Virus record (IMG/VR): IMGVR_UViG_3300042691_008285
Span: 1 to 35,830 of that record
DNA: 35,830 nt
Reading direction: 5' to 3' (one strand)
DNA from: a virus
The notes under the pieces were generated by a model, which did not search any database, was not told the DNA's origin, and saw only the letters and a list, made by a program, of their open reading frames with translations. Within the stretch, counting starts at the first letter, position 1. Each line of letters starts with the position of its first letter. Below are positions 1,880-35,830 of this stretch, piece by piece. Position numbers and translations under genes: made by a program.

Positions 1880-1912
1880 CAAATGTACAAAGTTTTCTGA
1901 AAAAATTTACAA
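1880..1912 (-). promoter_or_regulatory. Bacteroidota-type promoter abutting the start of the 1689-1874 gene
   Basis: On the minus strand TACATTTG (1887-1880) fits the TAnnTTTG -7 consensus, with a TTG at 1912-1910, 22 bases upstream. The spacer contains the A-run/CTTTG palindrome-like element that recurs at 5905, 6715 and 20635. The box ends 5 bases before the ATG, predicting a leaderless or nearly leaderless mRNA. Confidence 0.6.
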
Positions 1913-2209
1913 TGCAATTCTATCATCTGTGCCTTTGTAATACAATGCTCTGCCTTTTACCTCCACATCACCAATGGTAAGGTCATGCATTTGGATGGTG
2001 TTCAGCAATTCATTTTCTGTATTGTCTTTTTTTGGCAAATGCTTAGTGGCACGATATGCCTCCACTTCATGGTCAAATATCATGTTGGCAATTCTCACCT
2101 TGATGCCCATTGGATGCCTTTTGAATTTTTCTCCAATTTGTTCCGGTGTGAATCCCTGCATGTGCATCTGCCATAATTCGTCATTGGTTGGTTTTTGTTC
2201 AATTCCCAT
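1907..2209 (-). CDS. Small HTH-like hypothetical protein (100 aa)
   Basis: No family recognised. Residues 8-42 (from TNDELWQMHMQGFTPEQIGE onwards) read like a helix-turn-helix: two short helices separated by a Gly-Phe-Thr turn, then a basic recognition-like helix. This resembles small HTH proteins often found upstream of terminase genes, so a terminase-adjacent DNA-binding role is plausible. The C-terminal half is polar, with an acidic DNTENE stretch. The start codon follows an A-rich, Shine-Dalgarno-free leader. It directly follows the cassette-like block and its base composition returns to that of the phage. The HTH assignment is by eye only. Confidence 0.6.
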   Translation of the reverse strand: MGIEQKPTNDELWQMHMQGFTPEQIGEKFKRHPMGIKVRIANMIFDHEVEAYRATKHLPKKDNTENELLNTIQMHDLTIGDVEVKGRALYYKGTDDRIAL

Positions 2210-8696: not shown

Positions 8697-8922
8697 TTGT
8701 GGCAGGTGTTAATGTTTGCTGAATGATTTTGTTGCAATGAAATTTGATTGCATCTGCAATGCCGGAAAGGATTAGTATGTCATCAGGGTTGTCAAATTTG
8801 AAGTCGCTGATTTCGCATAGTTCTCCGCGATGGTACATCCATACTTGACCATTTGATTCGATTTCGATTTTCAAGCCTTCCACTGGCTCGTAAATGTGGG
8901 TTTTTTTGGTGTAGTGTTTCAT
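8686..8922 (-). CDS. Hypothetical protein (78 aa)
   Basis: The product starts MKHYTKKTHIYEPVEGLKIE. It has a strand-rich centre (LKIEIESNGQVWMYHRGEL) and a C-terminal helix ending in TNEQ. No family recognised. The start at 8922 is preferred to 8988 because it forms an ATGA overlap with a 27-codon ORF upstream and has the A-rich leader common in this genome. Function unknown. Confidence 0.65.
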   Translation of the reverse strand: MKHYTKKTHIYEPVEGLKIEIESNGQVWMYHRGELCEISDFKFDNPDDILILSGIADAIKFHCNKIIQQTLTPATNEQ

Positions 8923-12279: not shown

Positions 12280-12354
12280 TCCATGTGTGGTGGTGACCTC
12301 TCATGTGTGAATTTTGATTCCGATGTCGGATAATACCCGGCATCGGTTTTTTTT
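12280..12354 (+). ncRNA. Candidate small RNA or leader with attenuator (about 75 nt)
   Basis: Transcription from TATCTTTG (12267) would begin near 12280 and meet a full terminator at 12320-12354, giving a transcript of about 75 bases. It holds a 16-codon ORF (MCGGDLSCVNFDSDVG) starting at 12283, whose stop overlaps the terminator stem. This is either an independent small RNA or a leader peptide-attenuator for the downstream lysis-region gene at 12368. Not homologous to any RNA family I recognise. Confidence 0.4.
12320..12354 (+). terminator. Rho-independent terminator
   Basis: CCGATGTCGG and CCGGCATCGG form a 10-bp stem (one G-T) with a 7-base loop, followed by eight T. It is a textbook plus-strand terminator, placed before the ATG of the downstream plus-strand gene. 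Confidence 0.75.
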
Positions 12355-12367
12355 ATACCTTAATCAC

Positions 12368-12934
12368 ATGAAAATATCCCAAATCTCCATCATCCTTGCC
12401 GTGAATATCCTTACGGCAGTAATCGTGTATTTCCTTGCAAAAAATGGCCGGGAAAACATCGCCACCTCCACCACAACCATTCATCGTGACACCACAACCA
12501 TTGTCACCAATTACCCAACCCGATACATCACACAGAATTTCAACATTGATTCATCAAAGGTGATTATTCCGGATGTGATTGATACGGCAGCAATCATTGC
12601 CCGATTTTTCACGTCAAAAAATTATGCCCAAACAATCAATGAAAATGATGTGGAAATTTCCATCAATGATTCAATCTGCATGAATTCGCTTCTAAACAGA
12701 AAAATCTACGTCAAAAATAACCGGGAAACGCTAATACAAACAATATTGCCTACACCTGAAATGCAATCATTTGTCTTTTATGGTGGCATCCGGGCAGGCT
12801 ACATTCAGAAAGGACAATCACCCGTGATGGTGCAACCTGTGATTGGAATTGATTACAAAAGAAAATGGAAATTAGATGCAGGATATGACTTGCTTAATAA
12901 TGCTGCCGTAATCGGAATTTACCGGAAATTCTAA
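12368..12934 (+). CDS. Membrane-anchored lysis-region protein (188 aa)
   Basis: The product starts MKISQISIILAVNILTAVIV: residues 5-24 form one membrane anchor or signal-anchor, followed by a Thr-rich linker (TSTTTIHRDTTTI) and a strand-rich C-terminal domain with alternating hydrophobics ending AAVIGIYRKF. This fits Bacteroidota phage proteins encoded beside the endolysin and thought to act at the envelope, perhaps as a spanin. The start at 12368 is chosen because upstream ATGs lie within or before the terminator. It is convergent with the endolysin gene, overlapping by 4 bases, and is one of two plus-strand protein genes in the genome. Confidence 0.65.
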   Translation: MKISQISIILAVNILTAVIVYFLAKNGRENIATSTTTIHRDTTTIVTNYPTRYITQNFNIDSSKVIIPDVIDTAAIIARFFTSKNYAQTINENDVEISINDSICMNSLLNRKIYVKNNRETLIQTILPTPEMQSFVFYGGIRAGYIQKGQSPVMVQPVIGIDYKRKWKLDAGYDLLNNAAVIGIYRKF

Positions 12935-15071: not shown

Positions 15072-15578
15072 TTAATTGTAGCCTGATGAATATGCATTTT
15101 CCTGATAACTCTTTCCGGTGACATTGGTGGACATATCAATCGTGCCACCTGCTGCCGTACCCGGTTGCCGTAAAAATAAATACAGATTAAGGTCACTCAA
15201 ATTATTTAAGTTAAAATTGAACACACGGCCATCGGCCAAAATGTTATTCATCGGCAATCCATCTGAATTTCTAACCAACTCGACAACCCTGTCAATTGTT
15301 CCCAATGTCATCAATGCTACATCGAAAATGCTTTGATTCGCAATTCCGGTCATTGTCCTGTTTCCATCATCCTGCACATCCTGCACCAACTGCACACCCG
15401 GCACAATTGCCACAACCATAGATTCATCAAAGATGGCCACACCCGGAATGGTGGTGTTCCAATCCGGGAAAATAGATGGATTATCCCCCAACATTTTCAC
15501 GGCCATTGAAATATCTCCATAGGCCATGATTGCCGCATCAAATACATCCATGCCATCCAATATCTGAATCTGTGCCAT
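15072..15578 (-). CDS. LysM-like tail protein with two repeats (168 aa)
   Basis: Two similar blocks, VFDAAIMAYGDISMAVKML (about residues 12-30) and IFDVALMTLGTIDRVVELVR (about 84-103), have the 'sifDialq.yG....v..l' pattern of LysM-like modules in Bacteroidota phage tails. Comparable LysM proteins (P2 gpX type) sit at the tail hub and may aid cell-wall contact. The rest is strand-rich with Gly-Thr-rich ends. Order after the gp25-like gene supports a baseplate role. Confidence 0.65.
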   Translation of the reverse strand: MAQIQILDGMDVFDAAIMAYGDISMAVKMLGDNPSIFPDWNTTIPGVAIFDESMVVAIVPGVQLVQDVQDDGNRTMTGIANQSIFDVALMTLGTIDRVVELVRNSDGLPMNNILADGRVFNFNLNNLSDLNLYLFLRQPGTAAGGTIDMSTNVTGKSYQENAYSSGYN

Positions 15579-23647: not shown

Positions 23648-24628
23648 TTACGCGGTTTGTGTGGTATAAAGAACTAATTGCTCTCCCCATCCAATTTGAA
23701 CATCCATTTTGAAAAGCCCTTTTGCAAAGAACAATTCAGAATTGGCCTGAAGTCTTTTCAACTCCAATTGGTTGTCCTCTGTTGAATTCATGCCCAACCA
23801 AAGATTTGATTCAACGGATGGTCTTGCGATGGTCACCATGAAAGTATTTTCAGGAATTCCGGCAATGCGCTCAACATTGTAGCCTTTGTATTGGCCATTC
23901 ACAACACCCTCCGGACTTGGCCCTTTGTAGGTGAGGTCAATCAATGCCTGCTCATACTTTTCATAATCCTCGTATGAAAGGAGGAATTTCGTTCCGTTTG
24001 CACCGAACTTTCTCAGCAATGCCTTTGGCAGTAATGCTCTGCCAGCTTCCATTTTGCTGATGATGTTGGCTGATGTCAATGCAATTGGTGTTGAAACATC
24101 AATCACATTAGCATTATCCAATGCCTTTTTTATGAGGCCATCGAAATACTGATATTGTGATGCTGATGCAGGTGCGCCAACTGATGCAGGTGTTGTGCCT
24201 GATGCATAGGCCGTGCGACCTTGCCAAATGTGGCCATCAACAAATTCATCCAACTTTTCCAAGATGTACATCATGAAATACGCTTCAAAGGTCTGTGGCA
24301 ATTCAGCATCCAAAAGTTTTGGATTCAACTGCACAGCATACCAATGTTCCTCAAAATCGCGTGGATTCATTTCCAGATACATCATGAAATCCTGTGGCTC
24401 AATCACTGCACCTGCAACTGTCACATCACCGGATGATGTTGGTGTTGCCTGCCTTGCCTGAATGAAATTCGCGATGTCCAATTTTGGAATGGTGAATTTC
24501 TTTTTTATGCCATCTTTCAGGTAGATGTTGCCACCATTGATGGTGTCTGCACCTGTTACGGCCTTAACAATCATCACCGATGCGGCTTCTCCGGCATAGG
24601 TGGTATCTTGTATGTTTAATGCTTCCAT
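23648..24628 (-). CDS. Major capsid protein (326 aa)
   Basis: The main head subunit. It follows the protease-scaffold gene, the usual order. The N-terminal arm (MEALNIQDTTYAGEAASVMI), the central strand-helix pattern with NPRDFEEHWYAVQLNPKLLD (about 93-112), and the A-domain-like stretch FEAYFMMYILEKLDEFVDGH (about 118-137) fit HK97-fold capsids of Bacteroidota phages. C-terminal strands (FKMDVQIGWGEQLVLYT) complete it. Exact family not named from the sequence. Confidence 0.8.
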   Translation of the reverse strand: MEALNIQDTTYAGEAASVMIVKAVTGADTINGGNIYLKDGIKKKFTIPKLDIANFIQARQATPTSSGDVTVAGAVIEPQDFMMYLEMNPRDFEEHWYAVQLNPKLLDAELPQTFEAYFMMYILEKLDEFVDGHIWQGRTAYASGTTPASVGAPASASQYQYFDGLIKKALDNANVIDVSTPIALTSANIISKMEAGRALLPKALLRKFGANGTKFLLSYEDYEKYEQALIDLTYKGPSPEGVVNGQYKGYNVERIAGIPENTFMVTIARPSVESNLWLGMNSTEDNQLELKRLQANSELFFAKGLFKMDVQIGWGEQLVLYTTQTA

Positions 24629-24647: not shown

Positions 24648-26066
24648 TTACTTTTTCGCTTTGGTTTTTTCCGCAATTCTTGCCATCACTTTCGCGGCAT
24701 AATTTGCAGGAATTTTTGCATCTGTGCTTTGGCCAAAATTGGTCACGGCAGATGGTGCTTTTTTGCTCACAGGAATTAGATTCAGCAATTCCATTGTGCC
24801 ATCAAAATCATTCACCAATTTCTCTGACCATTTGGTGCGGCTTTCTGCATTGTCTGCAATCTTTCCGGCATTAACGGCATTGGTAAGAACTTCGGCCACT
24901 TTGGTTGCCAATACTTCCGCTTGTGCTGATTCAACTTTTTCTTTGAAAGAATCGCGTTCCTGAGAAACGGCATTCAAAGAATTGGTAAGGTCATTAACCT
25001 TGTTGTTTAGGGTGCTGATTTCTGCATCCTTTGCTTTCAGGCTTTCAGATGCTTTGGATGATTTTTCTTTCAGGCTATTGATGGCCTGAGCGATGATATC
25101 CTCCGCTGCACCCTCCTGCAATCCGAGAGCATTTGTAATCTGCTTGTTCATATTGCTGATTTGGTTTTTTAGATTGTTCGTGATGGCAGTAATTTTTTTG
25201 AAAACTGAGGTGGCCATCTCACCATCAATCTGTTTCAATTTCTTTTGCGCCCATGCGATGCCCTCGTCTCCGCCCCATGCATCCCACATCAATTTTCCGC
25301 ATCCCTCTCCGTATGGTGTATCTGAATTCTGTCTGTGTCGCTCAAATGCTGCCATTCTCGCGATTGTGTCGCGGCTGATTGGCTCTTTGTTCGCCAACTG
25401 ATTTGCTCTGATTTTTCCGACATTTGTGCCGCAATCTCCCCATCCATTTTCCTCTGCATATTTCAATGCCCTTTTTGCATTTTCTGTTGCTGCCTTTGGG
25501 TAATCATTGTAAGAATTCGTCAATGCTGCCTTAATCTCTTTCATGCCTCCGGTGATGCTTGTGCAGAATCCTGCCTCCAAACATTCTGATGCAGTCATCC
25601 AATTATCATCACCCATCAATGCAGTAACTTGTTCCCTTGTTCTCTTTCCACTTCTGCACAACATTGTGACCAATGATTCGGTTGCCTTTTGTTCCAATTC
25701 ACCCTCTGCACCCTGAACACCATGAATCATCATGAGTGAATAATCAGCCATTTCCCTTTCATCACCTGCCTGAAAAATCACGGCAGCAATGGAGGCAACA
25801 AGGCCAATGTTCACCATCTTTATTTTGCATTTCGCTTTGGCATTTTCAATTGCGTGGAAAATTGCCATGCCCTCAAACACCTGCCCACCAATGGAATTCA
25901 TGCGTATTTCAATCTCCGATGCACCATTGTCCAATAACATCTGCATTTCGCGCTGAAATTGCCCGGCCATAATGCCATAACCCTCACCATCGAGATATCC
26001 GATGTGCTTGTCAATCATCATGACAGGCTTTTCAGAAAATGGATTTATGGTGTATTGATATTCCAC
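24648..26066 (-). CDS. ClpP-type prohead protease fused to a scaffold (472 aa)
   Basis: The N-terminal ~180 residues are a ClpP/S14-like protease: MNSIGG (56-61), nucleophile Ser92 in VASIA, and His115 in MMIHG. A middle domain (about 237-281) has FERHRQNSDTPYGEGCGKLM, common to Bacteroidota phage proteins. The C-terminal region is a coiled coil (about 330-400, KAKDAEISTLNNKVNDLTNS) and a Lys-rich end, as in scaffolds. It matures the capsid by cleavage. The start is GTG at 26066, 37 bases after the late motif at 26104. Confidence 0.85.
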   Translation of the reverse strand: MEYQYTINPFSEKPVMMIDKHIGYLDGEGYGIMAGQFQREMQMLLDNGASEIEIRMNSIGGQVFEGMAIFHAIENAKAKCKIKMVNIGLVASIAAVIFQAGDEREMADYSLMMIHGVQGAEGELEQKATESLVTMLCRSGKRTREQVTALMGDDNWMTASECLEAGFCTSITGGMKEIKAALTNSYNDYPKAATENAKRALKYAEENGWGDCGTNVGKIRANQLANKEPISRDTIARMAAFERHRQNSDTPYGEGCGKLMWDAWGGDEGIAWAQKKLKQIDGEMATSVFKKITAITNNLKNQISNMNKQITNALGLQEGAAEDIIAQAINSLKEKSSKASESLKAKDAEISTLNNKVNDLTNSLNAVSQERDSFKEKVESAQAEVLATKVAEVLTNAVNAGKIADNAESRTKWSEKLVNDFDGTMELLNLIPVSKKAPSAVTNFGQSTDAKIPANYAAKVMARIAEKTKAKK

Positions 26067-26103
26067 GTTGCAATTCTAATTATGATTTGCCGTGATGCAA
26101 TTT

Positions 26104-26116
26104 TTTTAAGTTAAAA
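26104..26116 (-). promoter_or_regulatory. Late-operon motif TTTTAACTTAAAA before the protease gene
   Basis: The exact 13-base sequence TTTTAACTTAAAA also occurs at 35539-35551, and TTAACTTAAAA at 28405. The gap to the start codon is 37 bases here and at 35551, and 38 at 28405. Upstream is TTTATTGACATTC. It is a candidate phage late promoter or activator site. Confidence 0.6.
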
Positions 26117-26138
26117 GAGAATGTCAATAAAGTTAATT

Positions 26139-26363
26139 TTATTCCCAACTGATTCGCGTTTCATTTCCTGATGTAGTAATCAAAAATCCTTTTGCCTGCA
26201 ATTCTGTGATGGTTTTTAAGGACAATTTTTGTCCTAATACACAATCATAATAATATCTGCCATCATAGGCAGCAATTGATATTGCATTCAGGATTTCATC
26301 CATTTCAGATGTGTTGTCCTGATTTAATGAATCTGCTACTTGTTTTGCTTGTATTGCGTCCAT
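26139..26363 (-). CDS. Small hypothetical protein (74 aa)
   Basis: The product starts MDAIQAKQVADSLNQDNTSE: N-terminal helices, then IAAYDGRYYYDCVLGQKLSL and a C-terminal strand pair ending TRISWE. Similar small proteins ('A..G.y......l......L...Gf.I......I.W') are seen in many phages, often with baseplate genes. Start at 26363 chosen because it follows the fibre stop at once; the ATG at 26390 overlaps the fibre gene. Function unknown. Confidence 0.6.
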   Translation of the reverse strand: MDAIQAKQVADSLNQDNTSEMDEILNAISIAAYDGRYYYDCVLGQKLSLKTITELQAKGFLITTSGNETRISWE

Positions 26364-26364
26364 G

Positions 26365-28038
26365 TTAGAATCGGTATAAGATAACGGCATTGATCGCCGT
26401 TGTGTCGAGTGCGCTTGCGTTTTGAAGGAAAATGTTTAGGTATTGTGTTTGCGTCCAATCAATGACGGAGGTTTGCACGGTCCATGCAGCGTTGGCTACT
26501 TCTGTTTGCGCGTTTGTTGTTCCTGTCAATCCTCGCGTTCCGTTGCCCGTGCCGTTGGCTACTTGAACTTGAAAAATTCGCTCTATCCGGGTAAGTAATT
26601 GTGTTGCGCCTGTTGTTGTTGTAAGAGACATCTGTGTGCCGCCTACACCTGCTGAAGTATGAATAAAAGTTCTAACTGTATAAGCACCATTTGTTAATGT
26701 TTTTGTCGTTAACATTTGGAAATATACTATTGAGTTAGCGGTGTAGGTGTTGGCAGGTATGAGGATGCTTAAAACGCGGTTTGATGTAGTGTTTCCCGTG
26801 TTGGTGTATAGTGCACCATCGGCTGCGACAATCAGGTAGTTTTGAAATGTTTTGTCACCTCTGAAATACTGCAATGAACCTCCTGCGGTGATGGTGTTTT
26901 CTTTGGCATTTAGTGCCGTTTGTGTGGCCGTGCTGATAGGCTTATTTGCATCGCTTGTGTTGTCCACATTCGCCAATCCAACATCACTTTTCGTGCCTGC
27001 TCTTGCCGTCCATAAAGCCGTCACAGAATTGTAAAAAAGGCCATCATTTAGATTTGGATTTTGCGCTGAAACATCATGCAGTTCGTCCATTTCATAACCA
27101 TTCTGCACCCTCACATAAATCTGACCATTGCCCGCATTTGCTCGCTCAACAATACCAACATAAACAAGGTGATTCGGTGCATAAGGCTTTGTTGCCGTAT
27201 ATTGACCATTCGTGTTTGAAAGATACAATGTATCACCCGGATTGAATGCGCCTAAATTTAGGCCATCAATGACACCCTGAGTAATAATATATCCTGTGCC
27301 ATTTGCTGCAATACTTGTTGAAAAAACTACACCAATTGTTTTGGCACTTGTCGCATCGCCTGAATTGTTTGCCAATTTCACAGACATCCGATCACCCTGT
27401 GCCCCAAATGCATAAACAACCTGCCCTTTGGTGATGGTCACGGAATCAGCATTTGTAACAAAGGCAAACATTTGATTAGGTGCAACACCAATTAACTGAA
27501 AGTTTGTTCCATCGTAAATGGCAATGAATTGTTGCCCGGCTGCAATATCACCACCGACAATTGGCACAACATTATTTTTTGAAATGTTGATTGCGCCTAA
27601 ACCATTGATGTTCAATGAGCATGCACCTGTGTTGGCATTCGTGAATCTTACCACATAGGCATCATTGACATTGTATGCCGTAACTCCTGCAATGGTTAAT
27701 GCATAAGTATTTGTACCTGTTGCCGTGCCTCCGGGAATGCCTGATGTTGGAATGCTCGGAAATGTCGCTAAACTGCCATCGCCACGAATGTATTCCGATG
27801 TTGTTCCGGATGGCTGATTAAATTTTGAATTCCATTTTTGCGCCCCGTCAAAGGTGGCAGGTGAAACATATTTATTTGTAATTATTCCGGCATTGACTTC
27901 TGTCTGCGTTGCCGGGTCTACGCCTCCTCCACCTCCACCATTTTCATCAATCTCAATGACAACCTCATGTAATGATGGCACAATATCAATATCAACCTCA
28001 ATTGGTTGCTCTGTAATGTCAATGGAAACATTAACCAT
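26365..28038 (-). CDS. Tail fibre, probable receptor-binding protein (557 aa)
   Basis: A long fibre-like protein. An N-terminal strand-rich head (MVNVSIDITEQPIEVDIDIV) is joined by a run of Gly (ENGGGGGGVDP, about 32-42) to repeats such as SEYIRGDGSLATFP and LQYFRGDKTF, and a spacer NVDNTSDANKPISTATQTAL that is common in phage fibres. The last ~150 residues are a separate Thr/Asn-rich beta domain with different codon use (more CGT/GCG-type codons), likely the exchangeable tip. Overlaps the BppU-like gene by 8 bases. Confidence 0.8.
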   Translation of the reverse strand: MVNVSIDITEQPIEVDIDIVPSLHEVVIEIDENGGGGGGVDPATQTEVNAGIITNKYVSPATFDGAQKWNSKFNQPSGTTSEYIRGDGSLATFPSIPTSGIPGGTATGTNTYALTIAGVTAYNVNDAYVVRFTNANTGACSLNINGLGAINISKNNVVPIVGGDIAAGQQFIAIYDGTNFQLIGVAPNQMFAFVTNADSVTITKGQVVYAFGAQGDRMSVKLANNSGDATSAKTIGVVFSTSIAANGTGYIITQGVIDGLNLGAFNPGDTLYLSNTNGQYTATKPYAPNHLVYVGIVERANAGNGQIYVRVQNGYEMDELHDVSAQNPNLNDGLFYNSVTALWTARAGTKSDVGLANVDNTSDANKPISTATQTALNAKENTITAGGSLQYFRGDKTFQNYLIVAADGALYTNTGNTTSNRVLSILIPANTYTANSIVYFQMLTTKTLTNGAYTVRTFIHTSAGVGGTQMSLTTTTGATQLLTRIERIFQVQVANGTGNGTRGLTGTTNAQTEVANAAWTVQTSVIDWTQTQYLNIFLQNASALDTTAINAVILYRF

Positions 28039-28366
28039 AAACCTGATTCACCTTGATTGTGAATGTTCCCTCAATATATACTTTCACATCACCATTGGAC
28101 AAGGTGAATTGGATTCCGTAATCCCAAACACCATTGTCCCAATCAATGATTTGCTCATCCAAAGTAAAAATACCTGATGCGGCATTTGTGATTGTTGTTT
28201 CAAATTTTCTGACCTTTTTTGAATCGCGCTGCCACCTTGCAACTGCCTCAATGGTTGCGCCCGCTAAATTCAATGGATTTCCATCCACCGAAACTGAAAA
28301 TTCAATTGCCTCCATTGTTGTGCCTCTGATAATGGCAGGAATTGTATATGTTCCAATTGATGGCAT
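28031..28366 (-). CDS. BppU N-terminal-like baseplate protein (111 aa)
   Basis: The pattern MPSIGTYTIPAIIRGTTMEA then GATIEAVARWQRDSKKVRKF (about 36-55), ASGIFTLDEQIIDW and DVKVYIEGTF fits the N-terminal domain of BppU-type baseplate upper proteins. It probably anchors the fibre encoded just downstream to the baseplate. Start at 28366, 38 bases after the late motif at 28405. No signal peptide. Confidence 0.65.
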   Translation of the reverse strand: MPSIGTYTIPAIIRGTTMEAIEFSVSVDGNPLNLAGATIEAVARWQRDSKKVRKFETTITNAASGIFTLDEQIIDWDNGVWDYGIQFTLSNGDVKVYIEGTFTIKVNQVYG

Positions 28367-28404
28367 ATTCTGCGAAATTAGTACACCTATTGCAATCTGA
28401 TTTT

Positions 28405-28417
28405 TTTTAAGTTAATT
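28405..28417 (-). promoter_or_regulatory. Late-operon motif AATTAACTTAAAA before the fibre genes
   Basis: On the minus strand TTAACTTAAAA is followed after 38 bases by the ATG at 28366, the same distance (within one base) as at 26104 and 35539. On the plus strand the same bases contain TAATTTAG, a -7-like box with TTG 20 bases upstream, placed before the gene at 28438, so the region may work both ways. Confidence 0.55.
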
Positions 28418-28437
28418 TAGCCCTCAAAATCACAATC

Positions 28438-28695
28438 ATGGGCAGAAATAGAAAATTACCAACCAATGATGAATTGTTGAACATTAAAAACAATGCTGCC
28501 CGGAGAGTGCAGGCATATTGTAAGCCTACTCCCTACAAAATCATCATGGCACATTGCGAAAACAATGGCATCTCAACTGCCGATTTTGTTTCCCGAATTT
28601 TGGAGGATTATTGCAAAAACCTCCCTGACCGGGAAAGGCAAAATCTGATCAGGAAATATGATGAATTATCTACTAATGGCCGTAACAGATATTAG
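28438..28695 (+). CDS. Plus-strand small DNA-binding-like protein (85 aa)
   Basis: The product starts MGRNRKLPTNDELLNIKNNA. Residues 42-60 (ENNGISTADFVSRILEDYC) look like a ribbon-helix-helix or small helical DNA-binding motif with a basic N-terminus. It lies in the divergent gap that holds the late motif and convergently overlaps the fibre-like gene by 4 bases. It is one of two plus-strand protein genes, so it is a good candidate for a regulator of late genes. No family assigned. Confidence 0.6.
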   Translation: MGRNRKLPTNDELLNIKNNAARRVQAYCKPTPYKIIMAHCENNGISTADFVSRILEDYCKNLPDRERQNLIRKYDELSTNGRNRY

Positions 28696-29549
28696 GAATT
28701 GAATCCGAAATCTGCTTCGAAAATTATTTGTCCTCGCACATCCAAACCTCCGGTAATTGCGGAGTGCAGCGAATTGTTCACCCTTTCGAAATAAATTCTG
28801 TTATCACCTGCGGGAATTTTTACCCGGATGATTTCGTTTGCAGGTGTGTTGTTTCCATTTGTCATGAATGCAAATCCGTATGTGTCGCGGATGGCATTTG
28901 GGGTTACAAATGTGGCTGCGGTTAATACCTGCAAATTAAAAGAAAAATTGGATGTGTTATTACTCAATGTTCCGTTGGTGATTTCGAAATCAACAATCAC
29001 CTTGCAACCCATCTGTGTGGCAAATACGTTGAAATCTGCCGCGCCTCCCGGCAATGTCCATGTTCCGGTGGATGCAAAAAATAATCCTGCATTGTAAGGA
29101 TTCGGATAGCCTTGCATAGAGAATTTGCAGGCAGATAAATTCACATCTCCACTACCTGATGCACCTGCCGACCAAACAATGATTCTATCCATGTTCACAT
29201 TGTTGTTTGCCGCATTGCTGAATTGTACGGGGTCTAACCCTGCACCCGATTGGCTCACCTCCGTAATTGTGCCAATAACTACCTGCCCAACACCCGGTGT
29301 GACGTTTATTGATGCAAACCGATACACCTCACCACTCAAATGCAATGCACCTGCGTCAATTTGATATGTGCCACCAACCAATGAATATCCTCCAAAAAGG
29401 ATTGTTGGATTCGATGAATACTGATAATTGAATGCCCGGAGAATTCTGTTATCTGTTTCTTTCACATTGTCCTGCACCAAATCCAACATTCCACCCTTAA
29501 ATGGCATGGCTGCACCCGGTGCAATTGCTGATGTCTTAATTCTTTTCAT
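28692..29549 (-). CDS. Fibre- or tail-associated structural protein (285 aa)
   Basis: Strand-rich with Gly/Asn/Ser-rich loops over most of its length; contains FASTGTWTLPGGAADFNVFA (about 158-177) and a final DVRGQIIFEADFGFNS. The N-terminus MKRIKTSAIAPGAAMPFKGG has the 'PFK.G.ldhlQ' type start of fibre proteins. It follows the gp48-like gene, as fibre genes commonly do. Not assigned to a family. Confidence 0.65.
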   Translation of the reverse strand: MKRIKTSAIAPGAAMPFKGGMLDLVQDNVKETDNRILRAFNYQYSSNPTILFGGYSLVGGTYQIDAGALHLSGEVYRFASINVTPGVGQVVIGTITEVSQSGAGLDPVQFSNAANNNVNMDRIIVWSAGASGSGDVNLSACKFSMQGYPNPYNAGLFFASTGTWTLPGGAADFNVFATQMGCKVIVDFEITNGTLSNNTSNFSFNLQVLTAATFVTPNAIRDTYGFAFMTNGNNTPANEIIRVKIPAGDNRIYFERVNNSLHSAITGGLDVRGQIIFEADFGFNS

Positions 29550-29567
29550 TTTCGTTTGTTTTTTGCG

Positions 29568-30251
29568 TTAATATGTGTTGATTGAATAAATCAATCCTGC
29601 CGTGTTTATTTGGTCGGCAAATCGCCTCACAATGGCCTCTCTTTCGGGATTTGTAGCACCCAATGCATTGAATACTGCAATTGGCATGTTTATAGAAAAA
29701 TCTGCTGCCCCATACGTTGGATTCCCTTCCGAAATAAATGAAATTGCCTCCCCATTGATGGCAACAATTTCACTACTTTCATTTTCGGCATAACCAATGA
29801 AAAAATCCTGCAAATTGGAATTCAAATCATTGATGTAAATATCACTCACCAATGGTGGCTGACGAAATGTGGTGTCAAACCAAAGATTCAACCCGTATTC
29901 AAATTTCAAATCCTCTGCCGTGAAACGTGACCTGTCCAATACACCAATGAAATTGTCCTGAATCTTTACCCATACAGATGTGTCCAATGGTGTTGTGCCG
30001 GCAACTGCCAATGTGTACATTTCATAAATGCCCTTGCCCCACTTAACTCGGTTGCCAATGGCATAGGTTGTGGCATGATTAAAATCTGCGGTGGAATAAT
30101 CACCAACCCTGTATGATGTGAAAATGTTATCCCACAACCATTGCAATGGCTTCATTAATACTGCCATCCATGCTATCCAAACCGATTTCCGTCGGCTCAC
30201 AGGCAAAAGATTCTGCGCTTGTGTATTTAGATTATTGGTGAAAAAACTCAT
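29568..30251 (-). CDS. gp48-like baseplate/tail protein with a carbohydrate-binding-like module (227 aa)
   Basis: Sits after the baseplate J-like gene as Mu gp48/P2 gpI does. An N-terminal amphipathic helix (residues 1-35) is followed by a module with YAIGNRVKWGKGIYEMYTLA and ...SVWVKI (about 62-97), the aromatic pattern of CBM5/12-type carbohydrate-binding modules. It resembles the YAVGNLVNYEGIIYRC module in the connector gene 34674. The C-terminal part is helical (EREAIVRRFADQINTAG). Overlaps its neighbours as TAATG. Confidence 0.65.
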   Translation of the reverse strand: MSFFTNNLNTQAQNLLPVSRRKSVWIAWMAVLMKPLQWLWDNIFTSYRVGDYSTADFNHATTYAIGNRVKWGKGIYEMYTLAVAGTTPLDTSVWVKIQDNFIGVLDRSRFTAEDLKFEYGLNLWFDTTFRQPPLVSDIYINDLNSNLQDFFIGYAENESSEIVAINGEAISFISEGNPTYGAADFSINMPIAVFNALGATNPEREAIVRRFADQINTAGLIYSINTY

Positions 30252-31105
30252 TAGTAAATTGGGGAATAAGTCAATGTGTCTGCAAAGGTATGTGTTGCCG
30301 TTGTTTCCTCCGTGATGTACCCTGCATAAGATTGATACTGCACACCATTGATGCCCGTACTCAATTGATACAACATCGTACCTGAGGCATAAGAAACAGA
30401 ATCGCGCCTAACTTTTATTTGCGTGATATTTACATCCAATACACCATCAACTGCCTGAATTGCATCGTTTACATCCTGCACCCGGACAATGCCATTGAAT
30501 TCCAATTGTGCAAGGTAATTGGTTAATGCATCCTCCACAGATGCCTGAATGACGGCATTGTATTGGCCATCATAAAATATTGTTCCGACAACCTCAATTT
30601 TATCCGATGGCTCATTCACTATCTGATAATTTACTCCGGCAATGCCCCATTGAGCAACATAGGCCTGCAATGCTGATTGTTCGCTTCCTGACAATTGCGT
30701 TGGTGGGTCTGATTTTGCCACTTTGATTAAAACTGTCTTGTTATTTGTCACCTGCGTTGCTGCTCTTGTAATGATTTGAAATGTTGTATTGACAACCGGA
30801 TATTCAACCACCAATGTTGTTGTGTTCAATTGTGCCACCTGTGTTGCTGCCGTGCTAAATTGGAATTTGCCAACCATCCACCTCACCCATGCCTGTGTTC
30901 CCGGCTTCGCCTCTGCCTGAATGGTCTCAACTTCACTTTTGAACACATCCAATAATTGCTCAAATATGTTGATTGTCTGTGCCACTACCCACAGGAATAA
31001 TCCCCATCGTGATGTTTGGGAATTCGATGTGAATGCGGATAGATTTGATTGCTGATTCTTTTCAGCAACCATCTGATTTTTTATTTCTGCCGTACTTCGT
31101 GCCAT
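30251..31105 (-). CDS. Baseplate J-like protein (284 aa)
   Basis: Similar to P2 gpJ/Mu gp47. The C-terminal part is typical: VQASVEDALTNYLAQ-type helix (about 187-202), then NGIVRVQDVNDAIQAVDGVL (about 204-223) and NITQIKVRR, the 'V...i..yl..l.f......dl...i..v.GV.dv' pattern. The N-terminal part is helical and contacts the wedge. It joins the baseplate to fibres. Start overlaps the upstream stop (TAATG). Confidence 0.75.
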   Translation of the reverse strand: MARSTAEIKNQMVAEKNQQSNLSAFTSNSQTSRWGLFLWVVAQTINIFEQLLDVFKSEVETIQAEAKPGTQAWVRWMVGKFQFSTAATQVAQLNTTTLVVEYPVVNTTFQIITRAATQVTNNKTVLIKVAKSDPPTQLSGSEQSALQAYVAQWGIAGVNYQIVNEPSDKIEVVGTIFYDGQYNAVIQASVEDALTNYLAQLEFNGIVRVQDVNDAIQAVDGVLDVNITQIKVRRDSVSYASGTMLYQLSTGINGVQYQSYAGYITEETTATHTFADTLTYSPIY

Positions 31106-31605
31106 TATTGAAAACTACCTGATGTTGTTAATGTCGGTGATGCCTCCGTATATCCTCGTGGCCTTTGCGCCTGATGGTAGGTGATGGATGTCTCAAACAC
31201 AATTTGATACACATACCAATTGCCGTGATTGTAATCGGGATTTTCCGAAACTCTGTACATCCTTGCCATTTGTTCTGTGCTGAATTCCTGCAATGCCAAA
31301 TATACCTGATTTCGTAATTCAAAAATGCTGATTGCCTCATCCATCAATGCATCATTGCCATCCAATTCCATCTGCCCAATGTGAATGGTCACCTGAATGG
31401 GATTGTAAATTTGAACACCATTATGCAATTGCTCAATGGAGGATGGAGAGAATTCAATCAATGCGGCAGGACTTGCAATGTTATACCCAAAAGGATTGCC
31501 CTCTGCCAACATCTTTGTGAATTGGTCATTGAACACCCGGACATCCTGAATGTATGTCTCATCCTTTATTTTTTGCTTTATGGCTGCGATTATCTCCGGT
31601 GTCAT
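31105..31605 (-). CDS. Tail terminator-like protein (166 aa)
   Basis: Helix-rich N-terminus (MTPEIIAAIKQKIKDETYIQ) then a strand-rich core ending ETSITYHQAQRPRGY (about 137-151). The position between gpG-like completion protein and baseplate genes and the 'WYVYQIVFETSITY' strand suggest a tail terminator or completion protein. Start overlaps the upstream stop (ATGA). Family is a guess from order. Confidence 0.55.
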   Translation of the reverse strand: MTPEIIAAIKQKIKDETYIQDVRVFNDQFTKMLAEGNPFGYNIASPAALIEFSPSSIEQLHNGVQIYNPIQVTIHIGQMELDGNDALMDEAISIFELRNQVYLALQEFSTEQMARMYRVSENPDYNHGNWYVYQIVFETSITYHQAQRPRGYTEASPTLTTSGSFQ

Positions 31606-32135
31606 TTTGCTTTGTATTTGAATTTGCCCGGCATGAAAACATTGGCCAATGCCACACCAATGATTTCACGTTGTTTCTTCTCAACCTCGCTGCCATGCCC
31701 CATGAATTTTCTTTGCGGAATGTTTGCCTTATATGAATAGGATTTAACCACTTGCGGATTGCCTTTGATTCGCCTCGTATGTTTTGGAACTGAAATTGTG
31801 CCTTTAAATCCCTCATTATGAATTTCTGCATAAGGAACATTGGTGGAAATTACCATCCGGGCAAAGGTCTGCGAATTAATTACAATTGACCTCCGCAATG
31901 CACCCGACTGCACCAATATCGCCCGTGTCCTCGCTGCCTTTGTCGCTGAATTGTATGCACTCGTTCCGGGTGTCCTGCGCTTCACCTCTTTCCATTTTTC
32001 CCCATCCCAACCCTGTTTTTTCCATGAATCAACAAAGGTATTTTTGCTCACGTTTGTAAGCAATTTGGGCAATTGTTCTTTGGCCTTTTTCCACCTTGCC
32101 ACAACCTTTGTCATATCCAATTTATTCTTTGCCAT
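31602..32135 (-). CDS. Virion morphogenesis protein, gpG/gpS-like tail completion (177 aa)
   Basis: Matches phage virion morphogenesis proteins: ILVQSGALRRSIVI (about 74-87), VPYAEIHNEGFKG (about 100-112) and IPQRKFMGH (about 143-151), the 'LqrSg.L..Si......pYA.iHneG...PaR.flg' signature. It completes the head-tail joint. Start at 32135 is fixed by a strong Shine-Dalgarno AGGAGGTGA upstream, and overlaps the upstream stop by one base (TAATG). Confidence 0.8.
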   Translation of the reverse strand: MAKNKLDMTKVVARWKKAKEQLPKLLTNVSKNTFVDSWKKQGWDGEKWKEVKRRTPGTSAYNSATKAARTRAILVQSGALRRSIVINSQTFARMVISTNVPYAEIHNEGFKGTISVPKHTRRIKGNPQVVKSYSYKANIPQRKFMGHGSEVEKKQREIIGVALANVFMPGKFKYKAK

Positions 32136-32467
32136 TAGGCATTCACCTCCTGCGAAATATATTGCACATACCATCTTTTGCCACCCATCATTCCGGCATC
32201 TTTGATTTCAACACCATCGAATTCCAAATCAATCAATCCTCTTTCAATCAATTCTGCCTGCTCATCCTCAACCTTTGATATTGCGAATTTTTTGAATTCC
32301 CTGAAATACTCTTTGCACAGATATATTGTCTGCGGCGGCATTCCCCTCCTGCGGTCATAATGGATGATTGCGGCAACTGCATCAACACCGAGATTGCCCG
32401 TTGGCTCATATCCGAATTTCTCGACATACATTGCCCTCTTTGTTGCTTCTGTGTACGTTTTTTTCAT
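32135..32467 (-). CDS. Hypothetical protein (110 aa) in the head module
   Basis: The product starts MKKTYTEATKRAMYVEKFGY; mostly helical with a basic N-terminus and the segment GMPPQTIYLCKEYFREFKKF (about 42-61). No family recognised. It lies between the Mu F-like gene and the gpG-like gene; Mu-like phages often have a small unassigned gene here. Starts 6 bases after the upstream stop. Confidence 0.65.
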   Translation of the reverse strand: MKKTYTEATKRAMYVEKFGYEPTGNLGVDAVAAIIHYDRRRGMPPQTIYLCKEYFREFKKFAISKVEDEQAELIERGLIDLEFDGVEIKDAGMMGGKRWYVQYISQEVNA

Positions 32468-32473
32468 AGTGAC

Positions 32474-33361
32474 TTATGCTGATTTTCTCTGAAATGCAAA
32501 TCTTTCCGGGATGGGCAGATTGAAATTATTTTGGGCATATTCCCGGTACTTCGGCGCAACATTGAAATACGGATGTTTGCCTTTTCCGGTTTCTTTGAAT
32601 ACCAATCTTTCTTTGCCCGGATTGAACATGAATAATTCCTGCATCTGTGGCTCAATCTTTTCACTCACTCTCGTCAATTTCTTTTTGCCCGTCTTTCTTA
32701 CTTCCTCATACTGCGAAATCTTAATCAATCTGCATCTGCAATTGAAATGATTTAATGGTGAAAACTTATTCCAAAATGGATGATTGACGGGCAATGTGAT
32801 GCCCTCCAATGGTCGGCAAATGTCGGATGTGTTCGGGTCAATGATGGCATCATATCTCAGGTATGGAAACAAATCAACATCATCCTCAAATTCCTGCCAA
32901 TCTCTCGCTGATTGTGCGCTGCCTAATGCGGTGTTGTATTCTGTCCTTAACCATTGGTCATTGTACTTACCAATGATTTTTTCTGCCGATTTTTTGAACT
33001 TGTTAAATGGCTGCACTAATCCATCTGGTGCAATGTTGCTCACCAATTCTTTCACCTGTTGAAATGTCTTTGCACCTGAAAATACATACACATTCTCAAT
33101 CAATTCTGACCTCAAAATCTCATCCGGTGTATTGTAAGCAATACCAATGCTCTGTGCAGGTTGTTCCTGCTTTGGCATCCGAAAACCTCCACCCATGCCA
33201 ATCTCCATTGGTCTCGGTGCATCCATGCCATTATTGATAGCCTCAATGAATTTATCTGCCGTTTTTTGGTATAACCCTCGCGGCAAATTCCATTCATCAA
33301 TCGCACCCGAATAAATCGCGGCAATCAATCGCCCAAAATCATATTCAATGAAATTGCTCAC
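32474..33361 (-). CDS. Mu F-like head morphogenesis protein (295 aa)
   Basis: Minor head protein placed beside the portal. The diagnostic segment DPNTSDICRPLEGITLPVNH followed by FNCRCRLI (about 185-220) is the SPP1 gp7/Mu F 'D..t...C..l.G.......f....PP..H.nCRC' motif with Cys at CR and CRC. The start is GTG at 33361, overlapping the portal stop (GTGA). A C-terminal basic tail ends FAFQRKSA. May carry injected or internal head functions. Confidence 0.85.
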   Translation of the reverse strand: MSNFIEYDFGRLIAAIYSGAIDEWNLPRGLYQKTADKFIEAINNGMDAPRPMEIGMGGGFRMPKQEQPAQSIGIAYNTPDEILRSELIENVYVFSGAKTFQQVKELVSNIAPDGLVQPFNKFKKSAEKIIGKYNDQWLRTEYNTALGSAQSARDWQEFEDDVDLFPYLRYDAIIDPNTSDICRPLEGITLPVNHPFWNKFSPLNHFNCRCRLIKISQYEEVRKTGKKKLTRVSEKIEPQMQELFMFNPGKERLVFKETGKGKHPYFNVAPKYREYAQNNFNLPIPERFAFQRKSA

Positions 33362-34671
33362 AAATCAGAATATAGATTCCTCAACCTTGCCTGCATCGCC
33401 TCCGGTTGTGTTAATGTTCCGGAATTTAGCTTACTTACGGGTATGCCAATCCGGTCTGCCACCCACTTTTCATCAGGAGAAAATCCTGCATCGGTGAGCG
33501 TTTTGATAAAATCTGCCACTTGCTTTCTATCCGCATTCTCTGCCATCTGTGCCTCTGCCTTTGCGGTGTCATTTCGCAATGCGAATTTCAGATTTTCAGG
33601 AACGAAAATTCCATTGGCTCGCATCTTTGGAAGAATGATTGAATTCCATGCGTTGGTGAGGAATTTGGAATCATCACCGGCAATCGCATTCAATGCCTTT
33701 TGCACATCCTCATCCTTTGCGCCTAATTTCCCTGCTTTGCTATCCATCGCATCCGCATGGCCTAAAATGACCTTGCTGATTTTCTTTTCCATCCTCTGCT
33801 CAAAGTTATCATACACATCATTGCCCGTTCCACTTCCTTTTCCCTGTATGAATTCGATTTCCTCGTCCGGGTCAATTATCGCATATCCTGAACTGCCCAT
33901 GTCACGGATTGCGGCTTCAAAATCGCCTCTGTCCAAATCGCTTGTCTTTCGCGTTTTGCCAACCCTGAATGGTGCTGCAAACAATTCGATGTAATCGCCA
34001 TTGTAACCTAAATTGTTTCGAAGAAAAATCTCATACAATGCAACCTTATACAACAACCCATATCCGCAATTGCTCTGCCCATTTTCAGATGGTGTTGTCA
34101 AATAGAAAATCCAATCTTTTATTTCCTCAGGTGCATCCTTTCCAATTGGTATTCCTGAAACTGCATACATGAATGCCAAATACTGCTCTCTGTCCGGTGA
34201 CACAAACCATCTTTTCCCCAATGTAAGATTTTCAATGTTTACATCATTTACACCCTCATACCACAAAAAAGTATATCCAAAAAATATGGTGTCCAATACA
34301 TAGGCACTCAACAATTCATATGTCGGATTTTGCAACCATGCCGTCCATTCATCATTCACATTCTCATTCTCATCAACCATGATAATGCCTTTGTGCAATG
34401 TCATTTTCTTTCTCCTTTCCATGCAGGCAAACACATGACCATTCAGGATGGTGTCATTGAAAATCTGCTGCATCTTTACCCTGTGTGGGTAATATGATTG
34501 CTCTGCCTCTCTTATTGCATCGCGCCACTTCCTGACATCCTGCGAAACCCTTTCAATTGGTACTCTGACCGGGTAATTTTTTAACTTTTTTGGCTCAACA
34601 TTCTCCGTGCTAATGTTTGCCTGCTCGGAATAAAAATTGGTCACCGATGAATTCCATTTTTGCTTGCTCAT
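33358..34671 (-). CDS. Portal protein, DUF935/Mu gp29-like (437 aa)
   Basis: Forms the dodecameric DNA gate. Features of the DUF935 family: an N-terminal helical region, the central segment RRKKMTLHKGIIMVDENENV (about 86-105) and a C-terminal helical domain with SKVILGHADAMDSKAGKLG (about 292-310), like the 'lLGqtlT' segment, then a lysine-poor end. Start at ATG 34671 is preferred to the TTG at 34677 and overlaps the connector stop by the usual short distance. It lies between connector and Mu F-like genes. Confidence 0.85.
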   Translation of the reverse strand: MSKQKWNSSVTNFYSEQANISTENVEPKKLKNYPVRVPIERVSQDVRKWRDAIREAEQSYYPHRVKMQQIFNDTILNGHVFACMERRKKMTLHKGIIMVDENENVNDEWTAWLQNPTYELLSAYVLDTIFFGYTFLWYEGVNDVNIENLTLGKRWFVSPDREQYLAFMYAVSGIPIGKDAPEEIKDWIFYLTTPSENGQSNCGYGLLYKVALYEIFLRNNLGYNGDYIELFAAPFRVGKTRKTSDLDRGDFEAAIRDMGSSGYAIIDPDEEIEFIQGKGSGTGNDVYDNFEQRMEKKISKVILGHADAMDSKAGKLGAKDEDVQKALNAIAGDDSKFLTNAWNSIILPKMRANGIFVPENLKFALRNDTAKAEAQMAENADRKQVADFIKTLTDAGFSPDEKWVADRIGIPVSKLNSGTLTQPEAMQARLRNLYSDL

Positions 34672-34673
34672 AA

Positions 34674-35501
34674 TCAATACAGATTATTTCTTTTCAAATT
34701 GCCTCCAAATCGTGTCCGTTGGCCTGCTTTTGGTTGCCTTAATGGAATATCGGCCGTTATGCCATCAATCTGCCCTCCTGCCATCCTCAACCATTCTTTG
34801 GCATTCACATATCTTTCTACCCTTGACTGCGGAACATTTCCCGGTGCAATTCGTGTGTGCAGATGAAACAAAACAATGTCAATCATGCATTGAACAACTT
34901 GTTGGCTACGATTGTCACCAATTACCCAATAATTTGCATTCGTTGGCAATGTTCCTGCCGGGATGGAATATACAACTCCACTTCCCCAAAATTGTGCGCC
35001 TTTGTCGGGGTCATTCGGAAAAACATTCTCCACCTGTGCCTGTGCCGTGTATTCCTTTCCTGCATAGAAAACAATATCACCTGCATCATATTTTTTGTAG
35101 TAATCAAATAATGGCTCAGGCAATTTGCCAAAGTATAATGTGTATTGCAGGCCAATTAACGTGAAATGTGCTGCATCCCATGTGCCTGAATGAATTGTGC
35201 TGCATCTGTATATGATGCCCTCATAATTCACTAAATTACCAACTGCGTATGATTGTGTCGCATCGAAATCAGATGCATCTAAATAAATTCGTGATTCACC
35301 TGTGTATGTTGCCGTTGTGTTACTCCATACGGATGTATGTGTGAATTCCTCTGCCACATTGTATCTCTGTGTGAGATAGCTTACTGCCTCTGCCTCCCCT
35401 GCCCTCTCTGCTAAAATTCTGATGGCATCATTCCCGGAAATCAATTTATCAAATTGTTCCGGTTGGATATAGGTGAAATAATCTGCAATGAAAAGATACA
35501 T
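34674..35501 (-). CDS. gp36-like head-tail connector with two carbohydrate-binding-like inserts (275 aa)
   Basis: The two ends fit Mu gp36/DUF1320 connectors: MYLFIADYFTYIQPEQFDKL at the start and RVERYVNAKEWLRMAGGQID at about 228-247. The middle (about 75-205) holds two aromatic modules: SYAVGNLVNYEGIIYRCSTI with AHFTLI, and YDAGDIVFYAGKEYTAQAQV with NYWVIG, which read like CBM5/12-type binding modules. Such inserts in a neck protein are unusual. First gene after the terminase, 37 bases from the late motif at 35539. Confidence 0.7.
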   Translation of the reverse strand: MYLFIADYFTYIQPEQFDKLISGNDAIRILAERAGEAEAVSYLTQRYNVAEEFTHTSVWSNTTATYTGESRIYLDASDFDATQSYAVGNLVNYEGIIYRCSTIHSGTWDAAHFTLIGLQYTLYFGKLPEPLFDYYKKYDAGDIVFYAGKEYTAQAQVENVFPNDPDKGAQFWGSGVVYSIPAGTLPTNANYWVIGDNRSQQVVQCMIDIVLFHLHTRIAPGNVPQSRVERYVNAKEWLRMAGGQIDGITADIPLRQPKAGQRTRFGGNLKRNNLY

Positions 35502-35514
35502 GGCTCAAAAGTAA

Positions 35515-35534
35515 TGCAGGCAATTTTTCCTGCA
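35515..35534. other. Leader hairpin before the connector gene
   Basis: TGCAGG and CCTGCA form a perfect 6-bp stem with an 8-base loop, between the late motif and the connector ATG (35501). It would lie in the 5' leader of the transcript. Confidence 0.4.
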
Positions 35535-35538
35535 CCTC

Positions 35539-35551
35539 TTTTAAGTTAAAA
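35539..35551 (-). promoter_or_regulatory. Late-operon motif TTTTAACTTAAAA before the connector gene
   Basis: Identical 13-mer to that at 26104-26116, again 37 bases from the start codon. Upstream on the minus strand are two A-run/GTTT elements (TAAAAAAGTTTTC and TAAAAAAGTTTATC) like those in the early promoters. Candidate start of the head-operon transcript. Confidence 0.6.
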
Positions 35552-35582: not shown

Positions 35583-35830
35583 TTACCATCCATTTTTTGC
35601 GCGATTGCGCCCAACCTTTGGTGATGATACATTGCCCTTTCTGATGAATGATTGATATTCCTCCCAAAAGAATTCGCATAAGAAATAATCATTGGCATCC
35701 GATATGTGGCCGTATGGCTCATAAGATATTCCGGTCACCTTATCCCTCACCTTTTCTTTGTGCTTTCCTCCATCTGATGCCTCTTTCACATTCATGTATT
35801 CATCAATGGTCATGGTGCAATTTTCAGCAA
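35583..35830 (-). CDS. terL: Terminase large subunit, C-terminal part (wraps to 1-1270)
   Basis: The frame continues from 1-1270 through the repeated 69 bases and ends at 35583 with GRNRAKNGW. It holds the nuclease domain's last acidic motif, HISDANDYFLCEFF (the 'HasDalRY' position), needed for DNA cleavage. The stop is 82 bases before the connector start. Read with the first part it makes one full-length gene; the apparent open end at 35830 is only the window edge. Confidence 0.92.
   Translation of the reverse strand, partial: AENCTMTIDEYMNVKEASDGGKHKEKVRDKVTGISYEPYGHISDANDYFLCEFFWEEYQSFIRKGNVSSPKVGRNRAKNGW
35762..35830. repeat. Terminal direct repeat, right copy
   Basis: Exact copy of bases 1-69. 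Removing one copy gives the circular genome; see the left copy. Confidence 0.95.

Follow-up and report, generated by a model that had tools for sequence, protein, structure and literature searches.

Phage late-gene activators and viral ribbon-helix-helix (RHH) regulators are both already known kinds. Among the activators, Ogr of phage P2 and C of phage Mu are phage proteins that act with the host polymerase on palindromic sites upstream of late promoters, where they replace recognition of the -35 element; their folds and hosts are unlike those considered here. The Bacteroidota, one of the major bacterial phyla, have unusual promoters and do not use Shine-Dalgarno sequences. Promoters of the Bacteroidota primary sigma factor (sigma-ABfr) carry a -33 element, TTTG, which is weak in Flavobacterium johnsoniae, and a -7 element, TAnnTTTG (PMC6847099). 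In F. johnsoniae, transcription begins 4-5 nt downstream of the -7 element, which spans -12 to -5, and leaders are longer than 10 nt in 87% of the mRNAs with a probable promoter (PMC6847099). In the literature searched, we found no paper on RHH late activators or on the late promoters of Bacteroidota phages, nor any description of a late-gene regulator for these phages.

In this study, we analysed a window, meaning the whole stretch of 35,830 nt of phage DNA, in which the late operons share a palindrome upstream of their promoters. The reading that we favour, and to which we give a probability of roughly 60%, is that a dimer of a small phage-encoded RHH protein would bind the palindrome TTTTAAcTTAAAA and activate the late promoters together with the host RNA polymerase, with transcription predicted to begin almost at the start codons. 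Two features show the window to be a closed, circular phage genome: a 69-bp direct repeat at its termini (1-69 and 35762-35830), and ends that fall within the gene for the large terminase subunit (which runs from 1270 to 2 and on from 35830 to 35583). The phage families identified in it include terminase, portal, minor head, protease, tail sheath, tape measure, and baseplate, and the capsid gene (23648-24628) was assigned by a phrog match to virion structural protein and by its position after the protease gene. Relatives turn up among IMG/VR contigs as well as in genome bins of Mucilaginibacter and Hymenobacter, so the host very likely belongs to the Bacteroidota. The closest named phages are Bacteroides phages, with a capsid identity of about 28-30%, and megablast returned no near-identical named phage. 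Three late transcription units on the minus strand concern us here: the head operon, whose first gene encodes the connector (head-tail adaptor, phrog_195; 34674-35501); the capsid/tail operon, whose first gene encodes the head maturation protease (24648-26066); and a fibre cassette (26139-28366) of three genes for 111-aa, 557-aa (fibre), and 83-aa products, which has a putative operator on either side and is missing in the relative L008. The genome lies mostly on the minus strand, and a 206-aa gene on the plus strand (12314-12934), conserved in the contig of relative L003, has no family match.

The earlier note on this DNA had described a late-promoter element heading the head, capsid, and fibre operons, ending 37, 37, and 38 bases before the three start codons and including an identical 13-mer at two sites. 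All of these positions and distances were reproduced exactly. With both strands searched, TTAACTTAAAA has three exact matches in 35,830 bp (26104-26114, 28405-28415, and 35539-35549), all on the minus, late coding strand, intergenic, and at operon heads, where they lie 37 nt before GTG 26066, 38 nt before ATG 28366, and 37 nt before ATG 35501, respectively. The count expected on both strands is 0.023 under a first-order and 0.009 under a second-order Markov model, and the probability of at least three matches is about 1e-7, which bears out a shared element. Across 57 upstream regions, TTAACTTAAAA is also the sole 10- or 11-mer common to at least three genes at one offset. It forms the core of the palindrome TTTTAAcTTAAAA, which we regard as a putative operator. 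The 13-mer TTTTAACTTAAAA is identical at the protease/capsid/tail operon (26104-26116) and at the connector/portal operon (35539-35551), and the third site, which reads AATTAACTTAAAA (28405-28417), separates the 111-aa gene of the fibre cassette from the divergent RHH gene. In close relatives whose contigs cover the sites, the motif is kept while the spacer DNA varies. The connector site is conserved in L052, L053, and L055 and becomes ATAACTTAA in L008 and L056; the cassette site is conserved in L001, L003, L005, and L057-L059; and the protease site is conserved in L001, L003, L005, and L057 and altered in L008. Among these close relatives, L008 differs at one or two motif bases, and L054 is truncated.

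A host-type -7 box follows every site at a constant spacing. On the minus strand, the box is TACTTTTG at the connector (35506-35513), TAATTTCG at the fibre cassette (28373-28380), and TAGAATTG at the protease (26071-26078). It follows the operator by 25, 24, and 25 nt, respectively, and precedes ATG 35501, ATG 28366, and GTG 26066 by 4, 6, and 4 nt. TACTTTTG fits TAnnTTTG, and the other two are one base off; from box to start codon the sequences run TACTTTTG AGCC ATG, TAATTTCG CAGAAT ATG, and TAGAATTG CAAC GTG. By inspection, the window sites have no consistent TTG at the expected -33 position. Of the earlier statement that the motif does not match the Bacteroidota -33/-7 pattern, the part about -33 seems to hold, since a good -33 element appears to be missing, and the part about -7 does not, since a host-type box lies 24-25 nt downstream of each site. 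The absence of a good -33 element is what an activator-dependent promoter would show. Altered sigma use, also raised before, is unnecessary because of the host-type boxes. TTAACTTAAAA is indeed unlike a -33 element, as would be expected if an altered or phage-encoded sigma factor read the motif as a promoter element, but given a host-type box at constant spacing at every site we find this scarcely credible, and no sigma-like gene was recognised among the window genes scanned.

Because the boxes end 4-6 nt upstream of the start codons, the spacing known from F. johnsoniae (PMC6847099) predicts that transcripts begin with the start codon itself or 1-2 nt upstream of it; the same spacing places the centre of the palindrome near -44. 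The late mRNAs would then be leaderless or nearly so, a prediction from box spacing. A transcription start no more than about 2 nt from the start codon would best account for the fixed distance between that codon and the motif.

The layout extends well beyond the close relatives. We aligned on the box a first set of 24 non-redundant regions upstream of protease genes. The exact window motif is absent from the distant relatives in this set, and this led the search to lineage-specific palindromes: most capsid-protease genes of the 24 relatives have the same layout, and at the equivalent place they carry ATGTAACGTACAT, ATGTGGCGTACAT, TTGTAATGTACAA, AAGGTACGGTACTTT, ATTGTAGCCCACAAT, ATGTGTGCACACAT, and others. 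In these 24 relatives, the consensus AAGTRNNNYACTT (position -32 relative to the box) reaches a score of 6.92 of 10 against a shuffle maximum of 5.58, and the maximum of dyad symmetry coincides with its position. The consensus derives from the first set itself and was therefore tested on 72 further relatives found through a capsid profile; a protease start could be used in 62 of these, leaving 45 after redundancy was removed. The fresh 45 score 6.31 at the pre-set position against 4.64 +- 0.17 (z 9.9), and 40% of them reach at least 7, as against 5% in shuffles. With both sets pooled and redundant loci included, scores of at least 8 occur at 27% of protease starts and 0.6% of other ORF starts in the same loci. 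The box behaves similarly: it stands 3-5 nt before the start codon in 29 of the fresh 45, the combination of box and 3-5 nt spacing marks 63% of protease starts versus 5% of controls, and a -7 box score of at least 9 marks 56% versus 15%. A search among related phages, as the earlier note had proposed, upheld the element, which is kept in close relatives and replaced by lineage-specific palindromes at the equivalent place in most others. A distant relative, L175, has exact TTAACTTAAAA upstream of its protease gene, 26 nt before TACTTTTA.

The number of sites differs among phages. L029 and L034 have several, and many relatives have the protease site only. A palindrome at the connector operon is a feature of some lineages rather than of every phage; it is found in the window lineage, L029, and L034, and the match in L008 is not significant alone. 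The window motif consists almost entirely of A and T and lies upstream of -33, as would a UP-like element contacted by the polymerase alpha subunit without a dedicated regulator. Against this very improbable account stand the invariant C and the palindromic form of the word. We rejected it on the relatives, whose palindromes at the equivalent position contain G and C.

The candidate regulator is an 85-aa RHH protein encoded at 28438-28695 on the plus strand, opposite the late genes and divergent from the fibre cassette. A small gene adjoins the protease promoter family-wide, in nearly all first-set loci that cover the place and in 50 of the 62 new loci, and its product has 50-85 aa with RHH signatures. 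The member in L019 scores above the Pfam RHH_1 cut-off, other members match Arc-like PHROGs, and the family profile matches chains of ORF56, CopG, and ParG; the window protein alone matches RHH families only below curated cut-offs. In an AlphaFold2 monomer model (pLDDT 88), the window protein shows the helix arrangement typical of RHH proteins, with a predicted strand region at 22-28 and helices at 30-43 and 47-60, in keeping with the superfamily layout of an N-terminal, DNA-contacting strand and two helices after it. Foldseek searches with this model gave E-values of 0.9 or worse, the better matches being almost all RHH proteins, and tblastn of the protein against phage records gave no match. 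In most of the distant phages the RHH gene points at the protease gene, from just upstream to ~1.2 kb away. No convincing RHH gene was found in L036, L042, L061, or L062. In L008, where the RHH gene is divergent from the protease gene, two TAACTTAA palindromes 22 bp apart lie between them (8782-8814). Compared with L008, the fibre cassette of the window, with a copy of the operator at each end (26104-28417), is inserted between the RHH and protease genes, as if it had arrived between two operators already there.

Across relatives, the palindrome and the RHH protein change together at the capsid-protease gene. In partial Mantel tests given capsid distance, operator distance correlates with the distance between RHH beta-strands (r 0.34, p 0.0004) and between whole RHH proteins (r 0.37, p 0.0002). 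Phages with the strand variant -VFYP- (L010, L019, and L060) have even-length GTGT..ACAC palindromes, and those without it have mostly odd GTRNNNYAC palindromes. This covariation of strand and palindrome lends indirect support to binding by an RHH dimer. Among the new loci, a score of at least 7 is reached in 16 of 27 with a co-directional RHH gene, in 2 of 10 with a divergent one, where the general consensus fits poorly, and in 0 of 8 where none was found, a group that may include truncated contigs. The phage-encoded activator that the earlier note considered plausible now has a candidate that co-varies with its site; its activating role is what we infer.

Adjacency is not proof that the RHH protein reads the palindrome. 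Another regulator, of phage or host origin, could do so while the RHH gene is a conserved neighbour with another role, and L036 has a palindrome with no RHH gene detected in its fragment. One gene that might encode such a regulator lies upstream of terS (1907-2209, minus strand); its 100-aa product is HTH-like by eye, and it is kept in the window clade. We rejected this candidate, as it occurs in the window clade only and its identity drops there to 24-37%. Capsid divergence does not account for all of the covariation between operator and RHH sequences, no strong palindrome is found where the RHH gene was not found, and no early-region gene other than terL is common to the family, all of which makes a different reader of the palindrome quite unlikely.

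In the activation model that we prefer, a dimer of the RHH protein would bind TTTTAAcTTAAAA near -44, beside the would-be -33 contact of sigma, and would recruit or stabilise host polymerase with the Bacteroidota primary sigma at promoters that have no good -33 element. The promoters served would be the weak ones that head the portal, fibre-cassette, and protease/capsid/tail operons. The chief alternative is repression: the RHH protein would bind the palindrome and hold back the late operons until they are needed and, in the window group, its own divergent gene as well. The characterised RHH regulators CopG, NikR, MetJ, and SvtR are repressors, and SvtR of SIRV1 binds most strongly at, and represses, the promoter of a structural tail-fibre gene (PMC5569661). 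Two arrangements in relatives point the same way. In L008, the RHH gene itself has what reads as a TACTTTCG box, with a palindrome ~12 nt upstream of it, and at the connector promoters of L020, L022, L026, L027, and L038, an AAGTGCGTTACTT palindrome directly adjoins a TATATTTG box, a differing geometry that would fit a repressor. At the protease gene, however, the palindrome is held near -44, upstream of a core promoter with a poor -33, which suits activation better, and we consider repression of the late operons rather unlikely.

Under activation, the position of the gene makes an order of events plausible. In many phages, the RHH gene is directly before the palindrome and after the portal-operon genes, so that the portal operon, then RHH, then the capsid/tail operon could be expressed as an ordered cascade; in the window lineage, L029, and L034, the connector-operon site would add positive feedback. 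A further site may serve the end of the late region. The view of the motif as an intergenic element holds for exact TTAACTTAAAA and not for the variant TTTTAACTTAAAT, a fourth copy on the minus strand (15204-15216) that lies inside a 168-aa baseplate-region gene (15072-15578) and precedes the last late genes. The box TATTTTTA (TATTTTTG in relatives) lies 25 nt after it on the same strand (15171-15178). The four codons of this copy are identical in L003, L005, L006, and L008, compared with identical codons at only 17 of 72 conserved-residue columns of the same gene. This moderate evidence suggests that the site is conserved beyond the needs of the protein, and it probably belongs to an internal promoter that serves the last of the late genes.

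We tentatively extend the model to the family, with somewhat less than even confidence: a late switch of Bacteroidota myophages in which an RHH activator of 50-85 aa would replace -33 recognition at leaderless promoters, with lineage-specific, co-evolved, and possibly orthogonal pairs of regulator and operator. In the literature searched, which covered few subscription papers, we found no family-wide system of RHH operators at leaderless or nearly leaderless late promoters in Bacteroidota. If the model is true, it provides a concrete, testable regulator-operator pair and dozens of divergent natural pairs in which to study how RHH proteins choose their DNA. It would also make late promoters predictable in unannotated phages and offer candidate orthogonal expression parts for Bacteroidota.

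Among described phages, hankyphage p00 (BK010646) has a related major capsid protein (28%) and the same protease-capsid gene order, but its terS and protease genes diverge. No RHH gene is annotated beside its protease gene, no such palindrome is seen there by eye, and late promoters are not discussed in the passages found of the hankyphage paper, which has RNA-seq. The window promoters resemble Bacteroidota sigma-ABfr promoters in their -7 element, in the predicted start 4-5 nt after it, and in a -33 region that looks weak (PMC6847099), and differ from them in adding a palindrome near -44 and in having a box that ends at the start codon. The candidate regulator is like the viral proteins SvtR and AvtR (PMC5569661), CopG and ParG of plasmids, and Arc of P22, which are small RHH proteins with inverted-repeat sites; the likeness to SvtR would include action on a late structural gene (PMC5569661). 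Those proteins are mostly repressors; the sites described here differ in lying upstream of the core promoter and in varying from lineage to lineage across a large phage family. In having a shared site at three window operons, together with an internal one, the arrangement resembles the known late-activator systems.
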